IMG/VR virus record: IMGVR_UViG_3300023179_000496
Coordinates: 1 to 24,595 of that record
Origin: a virus
Length of the DNA: 24,595 nucleotides
Strand: one strand, 5' to 3'
A program made the translations under genes and the position numbers. The notes below the pieces were generated by a model. It saw only the letters and a list, made by a program, of their open reading frames with translations. It was not told the origin of the DNA and searched no databases. Shown in pieces: positions 21,972 to 24,009 of the stretch (its first letter is position 1; each line of letters opens with the position of its first letter).

Positions 21972-22044
21972 AAAGGACGCGGTTAGGCGTTTGGATATTT
22001 GGGGAAAATTAGTAATTGAAATAAAAGAGGTATGCGGGAGTTAG
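21922..22044 (+). CDS. Possible 40-residue basic protein with GTG start
   Basis: From GTG 21922 to TAG 22042-22044 the frame reads MASRPKKTRTTITAYD then KKDAVRRLDIWGKLVIEIKEVCGS. It has a basic flexible start and a helix, and looks protein-like. It bridges the space between the stop at 21971 and the next gene, overlapping the latter by 13 bp. No ATG is available, so it depends on a GTG start, which lowers confidence. Function unknown; a small DNA- or RNA-binding peptide would suit the basic start. Confidence 0.45.
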   Translation: MASRPKKTRTTITAYDKKDAVRRLDIWGKLVIEIKEVCGS

Positions 22045-22415
22045 TAATCCAAATAATCAATAAACATGATTTAATAAAACGATGCCGTAAATTAATGTAC
22101 GTAAATAAACGAAGTTTCTTAATGTTAAAATTACATCACGACGGCTATAATTTACGACAAATTGGCGAATTATTTGGTTTGAACCACGCAACCGTAATTC
22201 ATAATATAAAACGTGCGGAGTGGTTTGAAAAGACAAACGAAAGGTTATATTTAGAGGATACCCGAGAATTGCGTTTGGAGTTAATGGAGCATCCAGTTAA
22301 TAGAAACGTAAACGATTTAATTACTGAAGTAATCGATTGCAAATCTTTACGCGGATTAGAGCAAATACAAATACGTATATTAAAAAATCAATATAAGTTA
22401 AAATGTATTGAATAA
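22032..22415 (+). CDS. DnaA-like helix-turn-helix protein
   Basis: The protein has 127 residues. The N-terminal half contains RSFLMLKLHHDGYNLRQIGELFGLNHATVIHNIKRAEWFEK; the portion FGLNHATVIHNIKR (about 48-61) resembles the DnaA DNA-binding signature (..G.rdHtTVihai.k). The rest is a charged helical region (YLEDTRELRLELMEHPVN, DLITEVIDCKSLRGL). There is no AAA+ ATPase domain, so it would bind DNA but not open an origin by itself. It sits before the replication genes, suggesting an origin-binding or regulatory role in the phage's replication start. Confidence 0.72.
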   Translation: MRELVIQIINKHDLIKRCRKLMYVNKRSFLMLKLHHDGYNLRQIGELFGLNHATVIHNIKRAEWFEKTNERLYLEDTRELRLELMEHPVNRNVNDLITEVIDCKSLRGLEQIQIRILKNQYKLKCIE

Positions 22416-22420
22416 TTAAT

Positions 22421-22428
22421 TATATTTG
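22421..22428 (+). promoter_or_regulatory. Bacteroidetes-type -7 box upstream of the structured RNA
   Basis: TATATTTG matches TAnnTTTG. The -33 element is weak: TTAA sits where TTTG is expected (22398-22401). A start about 6-7 nt downstream (~22434) would fall at the first base of the first hairpin of the RNA candidate, which supports the assignment. Confidence 0.55.
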
Positions 22429-22433
22429 TAAAC

Positions 22434-22523
22434 GGTTCGTCTCTCACATTATAGAACCAAAAGATGTTATTAACCCTTGTAATAAAGTCGAAGTGAGAGC
22501 CGACGGAGTTGCAGGGGTTTTTT
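22434..22523 (+). ncRNA. Candidate structured RNA with loop-loop (kissing) pairing and terminator-like end
   Basis: Hairpin 1: GGTTC/GAACC (22434-22438 with 22454-22458), 15-nt loop containing CTCTCAC (22441-22447). Hairpin 2: AACCCTTGTAA (22472-22482) pairs with TTGCAGGGGTT (22509-22519) in 11 consecutive pairs, two of them G·U, and carries inside it GTCG/CGAC (22487-22490 with 22501-22504) with a 10-nt loop containing GTGAGAG (22493-22499). The two loop heptamers are perfectly complementary, so the hairpins can kiss. Six T (22518-22523) overlap and follow hairpin 2, as in an intrinsic terminator. It begins at the expected start site of the promoter at 22421 and precedes the DUF6291-type gene by 18 nt. 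It is either a small RNA or a leader controlling the replication operon. The folding is hand-derived; no known family is claimed. Confidence 0.62.
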
Positions 22524-22541
22524 ATTGATTAAATTTATTTT

Positions 22542-23135
22542 ATGGAACGTGATTCAATGATAATTTATAGAAGTTTTTATGAGGCAATTAAAGAGTTACC
22601 AAAAGAAAATCAAGCGGACGTTTGGACAGCAGTTTACGAGTTAGGGTTAAACGGGAAAAGGATTGAATTAAACGGAATAAGCAAAACGATTTTTATTTTG
22701 ATTTCACCCCAATTAGAAGCTAACTACAAAAAATATCTTAACGGAATAAAACCAAAAACAAAGCAGATAAAAAGCGAAATGGAAGCGAAAATAAAGCAAA
22801 AGAAAAGCAAAACCGAAGCTAATGTAAATGATAATGATAATGATAATGAAAATGTTTATAGGCGCTTCGCGCATTTATCTTTGAGTTTTCAGGAATACAA
22901 TAAACTTGCGGAAACGTGGAACGAAGACCAAATAAATACGACGTTAGACGAAATCGAGAACTACAAAAAAAATAATCAGTACAAAAGTTTATTTTTAACG
23001 GCTAAAAAGTGGTTAGGTAAAAATTTCCCTAATGGGAAACAATCGCAGTTAAGTTTGGATTTACAGTTTACTCGAAATATATTAGCCCAGCTAAACGAAA
23101 AAGACGACCCGAATAAATACCGAAATAATGATTAG
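22542..23135 (+). CDS. DUF6291-like phage replication-region protein
   Basis: The protein has 197 residues. Residues 1-66 (MIIYRSFYEAIKELPKENQADVWTAVYELGLNGKRIELNGISKTIFILISPQLEANYKKYLNG) match what I recall of the DUF6291 family. A Lys-rich linker (KTKQIKSEMEAKIKQKKSKTEAN) with a VNDNDNDNEN tract follows at about 92-104. The C-terminal third (LSLSFQEYNKLAETWNEDQINTTLDEIENYKKNNQYKSLFLTAKKWL) resembles the DnaD-type C-terminal region of phage replisome organisers. It overlaps the helicase start by 8 bp, consistent with loading the helicase. Upstream is the structured RNA, which may set its expression. Confidence 0.75.
   Translation: MERDSMIIYRSFYEAIKELPKENQADVWTAVYELGLNGKRIELNGISKTIFILISPQLEANYKKYLNGIKPKTKQIKSEMEAKIKQKKSKTEANVNDNDNDNENVYRRFAHLSLSFQEYNKLAETWNEDQINTTLDEIENYKKNNQYKSLFLTAKKWLGKNFPNGKQSQLSLDLQFTRNILAQLNEKDDPNKYRNND
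22830..22847 (+). repeat. GATAAT hexanucleotide repeat
   Basis: Three tandem GATAAT units encode the NDNDNDN tract linking the two domains of the DUF6291-like protein. This is a short in-frame microsatellite, likely variable among relatives. Confidence 0.75.
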
Positions 23136-24009
23136 AAAACAAGGCGATACGATACAATACCTTATTGATTTCAAAGAGGGTAAAATTAAAGAGGGTTTAG
23201 GTATCGATTGCCGTTTGGACGATTATTTAAGATTTAAGCGAAGACAAGTAAACATAATTTTAGGACACGACAACGTCGGTAAAACGTATTGGGTTAATTG
23301 GTATTTTCTTTGCCTTGCATTAAAACACGGATTAAAATTTATTCTTTGGAGCGGTGAAAATCAAAAAGGACAAATTTTACGGGATTTAATCCAGTTGTAT
23401 TCAGGCGAAAAATTCAAAAATTTAACGATTGCTCAAATTCAAAGTTATTCAACATACTTGGAACAATTTTTTATATTTGTAGATAATACAAAACTTTACA
23501 AGCCGTTGGAGTTATTGGAATTATTTAACGCTTCGGGTTGCGATGTCGGGTTAATAGACCCGTTCACGGGGTTAGATAGGGAAATGAGTTACGAGGGTAA
23601 TTATACTTTTATGAATAAGGCACGGGAGTTTGTGAATAAAACGGGAATGACAATTTACATAAATACGCACCCGAATACCGAGAGCGGACGAAGTGGGCAT
23701 TTATACCCCGACGGGGATTTTAAAGGACATTTGAAACCGCCGTTAAAAGACCACATCGAGGGTGGTAAGGCATTTTTGAATAGATGCGACGATATGGTAG
23801 TTATTCACAGGCTAATAAAACACGAAGTAATGAAATATTGTACTATGGTAAGCGTTGAAAAAGTAAAGGACACGGATACGGGCGGTAGGCATACGGGATT
23901 AAACGACGCGGTTATTTTTAATTGGAATAGCGGATTAGGTTTTGAAGTTTACGGAGTGAATCCGATTAAAGATATTAGGATACCAAAAGACAAAAATTTA
24001 CCTTTTTAG
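23128..24009 (+). CDS. Replicative helicase, DnaB/RecA-type ATPase core
   Basis: The protein has 293 residues. Walker A is GHDNVGKT (46-53), followed by FILWSGENQKGQILRDLIQLYSGE, Walker B VGLIDPF (140-146), the segment FVNKTGMTIYINTHPNTESGR, and HIEGGKAFLNRCDDMVVIHR, which resembles motifs H3/H4 of DnaB-like helicases. The protein lacks the N-terminal DnaB domain and any primase domain, so it is the ATPase core only, similar to minimal phage helicases. It probably unwinds the fork with the upstream protein acting as loader. Start at 23128 overlaps the upstream stop by 8 bp. Confidence 0.82.
   Translation: MIRKQGDTIQYLIDFKEGKIKEGLGIDCRLDDYLRFKRRQVNIILGHDNVGKTYWVNWYFLCLALKHGLKFILWSGENQKGQILRDLIQLYSGEKFKNLTIAQIQSYSTYLEQFFIFVDNTKLYKPLELLELFNASGCDVGLIDPFTGLDREMSYEGNYTFMNKAREFVNKTGMTIYINTHPNTESGRSGHLYPDGDFKGHLKPPLKDHIEGGKAFLNRCDDMVVIHRLIKHEVMKYCTMVSVEKVKDTDTGGRHTGLNDAVIFNWNSGLGFEVYGVNPIKDIRIPKDKNLPF

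Follow-up and report, generated by a model that had tools for sequence, protein, structure and literature searches.

A conserved RNA with kissing hairpin loops ahead of the replication genes in a group of uncultured phages

The window analysed here, the whole stretch of 24,595 nucleotides of viral DNA, contains in front of its replication genes an element that, judging from the compensatory changes accumulated across its homologues, is a conserved structured RNA of a new family; the class is absent from Rfam. Two hairpins, H1 and H2, carry in their loops perfectly complementary 7-nt words, A and A′, and the second hairpin runs into a stretch of T residues. We moderately favour the interpretation that the element is a same-strand attenuator or antisense leader RNA that would control entry into the replication operon. 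A large group of uncultured phages appears to place an RNA switch between the promoter and the replication initiator.

The arrangement of the elements had been proposed in a first-pass annotation made from the letters of the window. On re-reading positions 22380 to 22600 all of them were found where they had been placed, and the surrounding genes complete the layout as follows:

22032–22415, plus strand: upstream ORF with a DnaA C-terminal-like helix-turn-helix (PF08299, E 3.7e-6, under the curated cut-off)
22421–22428, plus strand: promoter-like box TATATTTG of the TAnnTTTG type (Bacteroidetes −7 type), recognized by sequence
22434–22458, plus strand: hairpin H1, with stem P1 (GGTTC 22434–22438 / GAACC 22454–22458) and a 15-nt loop; compensatory changes
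22441–22447, plus strand: kissing word A, CTCTCAC, inside the H1 loop; partner kept in 99 of 99 class I RNAs
22448–22453, plus strand: H1 loop tail ATTATA, consensus AnnATA; ACA/ATA columns almost invariant in alignments A1 and A2
22459–22471, plus strand: conserved single-stranded linker AAAAGATGTTATT, 13 nt; AAAG..GTTATTA near-invariant in class I
22472–22519, plus strand: terminator hairpin H2, with outer stem P2 (22472–22483 / 22508–22519), 12 pairs including a G-U; compensatory changes
22487–22504, plus strand: inner stem P3 (GTCG 22487–22490 / CGAC 22501–22504), which presents the apical loop; compensatory changes
22493–22499, plus strand: kissing word A′, GTGAGAG, inside the H2 loop; varies in concert with A
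22518–22523, plus strand: terminator U-run (six T) seen in the sequence; at least five T in all homologues
22524–22541, plus strand: AT-rich gap from the U-run to the ATG, 18 nt, which is the family median
22542–23135, plus strand: DUF6291 gene, ATG at 22542 (PF19808, E 7.7e-13)
23128–24009, plus strand: DnaB-like helicase gene (PHROG DNA primase/helicase matches, E 2.8e-20)

The outer stem of H2 had been given as 11 pairs, one short of the count found here. The gap had also been called non-coding, and indeed no ORF overlaps the RNA region. The box TATATTTG or a near variant of it is present in almost all homologues, and a −33 element is not evident upstream of it. The product of the ORF at 22032–22415 is, from its predicted domain, a possible origin-binding protein, and ORFs similar to it end directly before the RNA in many relatives.

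Taken alone, the window sequence is unremarkable. The fold z-score of its RNA is −1.8, and a comparable pair of kissing hairpins is found in 956 of 20,000 dinucleotide shuffles (about 5%), so that the original statement that such nested pairing is hard to get by chance was too strong for one sequence. Rfam 15 gave no match to the whole window at the gathering score, and a permissive search of 22380–22600 returned chance matches only. The pistol-like ribozyme was considered for its loop pseudoknot and set aside on its architecture, which is not known to include a second hairpin presenting the loop or a terminator. The comparison with relatives is what is decisive.

The relatives, whose contigs are metagenomic fragments of uncultured phages, were obtained by several routes that weigh differently on the question of kissing. 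The first 26 loci came from a descriptor search that required kissing and are circular in this respect. Because some loci had been found by a script demanding kissing, a model without the pseudoknot was built and loci were gathered by the helicase protein only, which served as the ascertainment handle for the RNA family; further loci were found by a pattern of the conserved linker that ignores the loop word. The counts used here as evidence rest mainly on loci from the protein, or from a model or pattern blind to the loop word. DUF6291 relatives in viral contigs have the same layout with other words, namely CTTCCAC/GTGGAAG, GGCTAGAC/GTCTAGCC, CGTCTAAC/GTTAGACG and CATCCTAC/GTAGGATG.

In alignment A2, composed of 17 RNAs, 98.7% of the cells are paired and 23 of the 27 pairs have changed on both sides. 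Its covariation score, 0.876, exceeds that of shuffles (0.261) and of structures slid along the alignment (0.124 at most), and none of 500 shuffles reached it. Across the alignments, 98.7–99.1% of stem cells are paired, with 140–526 double-sided changes. The stems P1, P2 and P3 of 99 diverse class I RNAs are 99% paired and account for 526 such changes: P1 has double-sided compensatory changes in all five pairs (99.8% of cells paired), P2 in 9 of its 10 modelled pairs (98.6%) and P3 in 4 of 4 (99.5%). Double-sided changes thus reach 18 of 19 nested pairs, and they are present in 6 of 8 loop-loop pairs. Pairing between the loops is kept in every one of the 99 class I RNAs, with 6–9 bp built from 31 different words and a single G-U in about 800 cells of the loop-loop helix; when loops were swapped between class I RNAs, at least 7 bp were obtained in about 4%. 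Among the low-scoring matches that we term class II, 35 of 36 distinct RNAs have the loop-loop pairing, the exception being a plain promoter-terminator. Homologues that had lost covariation or loop complementarity had been named at the outset as the observation that would speak against the element; the check was run and the finding passed it, with 99/99 keeping the kissing and the stems covarying.

The kissing word changes fast and on both sides at once. The RNAs of contigs L106 and L571 are identical at the 78 compared positions outside the word and have two compensated base-pair differences within it. Between the window and its near relative L001/G021, in which CTCTCAC/GTGAGAG is replaced by CTTCCAC/GTGGAAG, 1 of 79 positions differs outside the word and 5 of 12 inside (comparison with L001). 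In 95 close RNA pairs, 15% of positions differ within the word and 7% in the remainder, rates of change that lean upward because near-identical RNAs had been removed beforehand. When the roughly 20 kb that align in the window and contig G021 were scanned for coupled changes, the H1/H2 pair was the sole site found to change with the word; no third copy of the window's word was found in the window or in the about 20 kb aligned to the near relative.

The RNA occupies a constant place. Of the 110 non-redundant loci found by the helicase protein alone that extend 2.5 kb or more in the upstream direction, 108 have it ahead of the helicase, and in one of the remaining two, L319, it is located further upstream. 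Among 147 distinct RNAs, the distance from the U-run to the start codon has a median of 18 nt with quartiles of 16–20, and is 30 nt or less in 142. Since the start codon keeps this median of 18 nt past the U-run whatever the gene, and 80 different N-terminal octapeptides follow the U-run in this set, there is no room for another promoter; TAnnTTTG occurs between U-run and start codon in 6 of the 147. With so short and constant a gap, the gene after the U-run appears, on the evidence of its placement, to be expressed only by read-through of the terminator. The genes in this slot are DUF6291 or DnaD/O-like replication initiators (PHROG matches to DnaD-like helicase loader and replication initiation O-like proteins), and the helicase comes after the slot gene in most loci. 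Longer gaps after the U-run, with an extra small hairpin GGTTTTC..GAAAACC, were seen in L174, L492, L567, L590 and L612, where the genes that follow are of the MVQIIFYG/MTKMVELV type. One phage with a class I RNA carries in addition, at L427:1748–1815, a promoter box with a plain, non-kissing intrinsic terminator, and leaders made of promoter and terminator may be a general trait of these phages.

Class II RNAs, the low-scoring model matches (19–34 bits), have the same topology in another sequence. Their H1 and H2 loops, of 6–9 nt, consist largely or wholly of the kissing word, and most of them contain an AGTA/GAA internal loop, which we take to resemble the sarcin-ricin motif. In 30 of 35 distinct class II RNAs the H1-loop word recurs no more than 14 nt ahead of a start codon, mostly that of a replication gene, against 5.7% in a swap control; examples are AAAAGTCGCAGAATG, TTTTAGTGCAGTAAAATG, AATGTTGCAGATG, AAGAGCAGTTAAATG and AACGTCGAATG. 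The middle copy is always inverted and the third is always in the A orientation before the ATG. In L336, L350 and L338, where genes are inserted after the RNA, the third copy lies at a distance of 1.8 kb, where a DUF6291-type replication gene has its start codon. Given these copies at start codons, the class II terminator loop is antisense to the translation start of a gene, in most cases the replication initiator; H1 holds a copy of that target word as well. A third copy is also present at three class I loci, CTTCGACAATG, and in the contigs of about 18–32 kb that were scanned no third copies of class I words were found at start codons. The class II RNAs that have no third copy are those of the L293 group, the L312 group and the RNAs with the GTTACGG word before HNH homing-endonuclease genes.

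These last represent a second RNA, alike in topology and with a different word, GTTACGG/CCGTAAC, located directly before NUMOD4-HNH homing-endonuclease genes (L170:3513–3614; L333/L416:3377–3476; L342, L454 and L467:3627–3725). A class I RNA is present as well in the L170 and L333/L416 contigs, which means that a single phage can have two different kissing RNAs. Upstream of the helicase in L550–L552 and L543, a variant word, GGTAGGA/TCCTACC, is placed before MADNKKSF-type genes and seems to have no start-codon copy.

The comparison of homologues establishes the fold, the kissing, the constant position and the class II third site. From the arrangement of these elements we infer a start of transcription, an efficiency of termination, attenuation and an action in trans that together give the following model. 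Transcription from TATATTTG would begin at or just before H1. RNA polymerase would next make the intrinsic terminator H2, giving rise to an RNA of about 90 nt ending at the U-run, unless it reads through. The kissing of the H1 loop with the terminator loop would couple H1 to the folding of the terminator. As the first replication gene seems reachable only by read-through, the element would attenuate the replication-initiator/helicase operon. Having both words, the terminated RNA could pair in trans with leaders or messages of the same word, and in class II the terminator loop, being also antisense to the target's start codon, could block translation in cis or in trans, like the c4 RNA of P1/P7 and the CI RNA of P4. 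Self-sequestration of A′ by H1 would weaken the action in trans. For the window's own phage an antisense third site, and with it the start-site pairing typical of c4 and CI, was not found in the window or in the about 20 kb aligned to the near relative; it is found in 30 of the 35 class II RNAs. We estimate that the zipped P2 and the kissing helix measure together about 30 bp, a distance that the 13-nt linker spans only if it is extended or the complex bends.

No conserved antiterminator was found, the linker side being constant where P2 changes: TTATTA and TAATGA can form 5–6 pairs in 61 of the 62 RNAs with an exact TTATTA, and the linker side does not covary. On the minus strand, TAnnTTTG occurs inside the RNA in 6 of 149 cases and within 150 nt downstream in 16 of 149, against 22 in a control stretch. 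An opposite-strand promoter is thus not enriched, and the trans partner of the pT181 or IncI systems is missing. The initial annotation had left three options for the element. Best supported among them is a leader in which termination alternates with read-through into the DUF6291/helicase/NinG operon: its position holds, with the 18-nt gap and 108/110 loci, and we infer the switch itself. A small RNA is possible as the terminated product, and nothing spoke for a decoy.

Other explanations have to be weighed against the attenuator leader. The element, with its own promoter-like box and its own terminator, could be a stand-alone gene for a trans-acting sRNA, whose terminated product of about 90 nt acts on host or phage messages while the neighbouring replication gene is incidental. 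The third copies at class II start codons, three of them at 1.8 kb, do resemble trans targets; however, a free-standing RNA does not need a near-constant 18 nt to the start codon across unrelated genes, and most class I words, the window's included, have no third copy, and we think this explanation improbable. The same lack of a third copy beside class I kissing, and the plain promoter-terminator without kissing in the same phages (L427:1748), would suit an ordinary promoter with a leaky terminator, whose matching loops do no more than stabilise the 3′ end of the RNA, with nothing regulated. Such an arrangement does not account for conservation in 99/99 RNAs with concerted change of the loop word, for the conserved unpaired linker and loop tail, or for the class II copies at start codons, which makes it distinctly unlikely.

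The proximity to replication suggests two further possibilities, both very unlikely. The RNA might prime or license DNA replication at this place, as at origins of the ColE1 type or RNA-based origins of phages, and primer formation would then be under the control of the kissing loops. Its location where the replication module begins agrees with this, and RNA-based origins exist in mycobacterial prophages (PMC7157519); but an initiator-like gene and a helicase are encoded alongside, and an origin leaves unexplained the second related RNA that, with a different word, precedes an HNH homing-endonuclease gene in some phages. Alternatively, a protein could bind A, the inverted A′ and A again as a DNA operator or iteron near an origin or promoter, the RNA pairing being a by-product. 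The adjoining replication genes and DnaA-like helix-turn-helix ORF, together with the three copies in class II, are what such an operator would lead one to expect. It is nonetheless the least probable of all these explanations, since A and A′ fall exactly within the loops of hairpins with independently covarying stems, the inverted copy is in every case the middle one, the third copy, before the ATG, has the A orientation throughout, and the word differs between near-identical RNAs. The attenuator leader remains the reading that we prefer.

The nearest cultured relatives of the helicase are those of Cellulophaga and Maribacter phages, at about 30% identity, and the hosts of this phage group are probably Bacteroidetes. 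A blastn search of the gap, one class I RNA and one class II RNA against cultured phages gave no homologue, and the RNA was not found in a descriptor scan of regions of Riemerella phage GRNRAP2, Maribacter phage Panino and one faecal phage. Neither the helicase alignment nor the RNA pattern had a match in about 85,000 bacterial and archaeal genomes, and 22 contigs of these phages contained no integrase. Taken together, the last two results make ordinary lysogenic immunity unlikely and are evidence against the phages being integrated as prophages; a plasmid-like or non-integrating state is possible. Elsewhere in the window, positions 1149–2709 lie upstream of the terminase genes and encode two proteins in succession, one with a ParB-N domain and then a TET-associated glycosyltransferase (PF20691, E 4e-33); these predicted domains suggest DNA base modification in this phage.

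One tentative extension of the model, which we regard as doubtful, is that the word functions as a password, the terminated RNA pairing with the same-word leader of an incoming phage and shutting its replication operon. Were this true, the word would define an RNA-encoded superinfection-immunity or incompatibility group in phages without sign of integration; about 40 word types are visible so far. As the fold remains constant and the word changes in concert at two sites, in some cases three, it would become possible to predict from sequence the antisense specificity and perhaps also exclusion between phages. The naturally varied kissing words also constitute a ready set for RNA engineering, and make clean compensatory mutants possible.

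Control of replication or immunity by short RNAs has several precedents. The c4 RNA presumably uses two words, in place of the one used here. In P1 and P7 this RNA, which is tied to heteroimmunity, acts by blocking the ribosome-binding region of ant (PMC12197685). The likeness lies in its being a short phage RNA that is transcribed from the target's own strand and exposes, in loops, words complementary to the ribosome-binding region of the downstream message (PMC12197685). The present RNA differs in that the target is a replication initiator and not an antirepressor, in that the word is also paired inside the RNA, and in having no Rfam match. The CI RNA of the satellite phage P4 acts through seqA, seqB and seqC by premature termination before the replication genes, with seqA/seqC shut-off (PMC4825925). 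It is also a same-strand leader, in which seqB resembles A′, seqA the A of H1 and seqC the A at the start codon (PMC4825925). Here, in contrast, A and A′ are in one short RNA with its own intrinsic terminator and no known processing, no integrase was found, there is no sequence relation, and the third site is limited to class II and three class I loci.

In pT181 and the I-complex plasmids (IncI/IncK) the initiator is controlled via kissing loops, and changes in the loops alter specificity or compatibility (PMC4878617, PMC10724649). Like the phages described here, these plasmids have kissing loops and, ahead of the initiator gene, an attenuator or pseudoknot, and the pT181 attenuator shares the terminator hairpin and U-run before the initiator gene, the read-through being in our case the predicted step. 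The plasmid systems use a counter-transcribed antisense RNA, whereas here the two complementary words lie in cis on one strand. IsrK of Gifsy-1 provides the case of one promoter from which both a short terminated sRNA and a read-through mRNA arise, the sRNA pairing with the downstream message (PMC4825925). It activates an antirepressor operon, and that account of it describes no kissing between two loops; the phages are unrelated. The window RNA would work like the c4, CI and plasmid control RNAs and is not a member of any of these groups, as it has no sequence or Rfam relation to them; it would be a same-strand, self-contained relative of c4/CI and of the plasmid copy-control RNAs.
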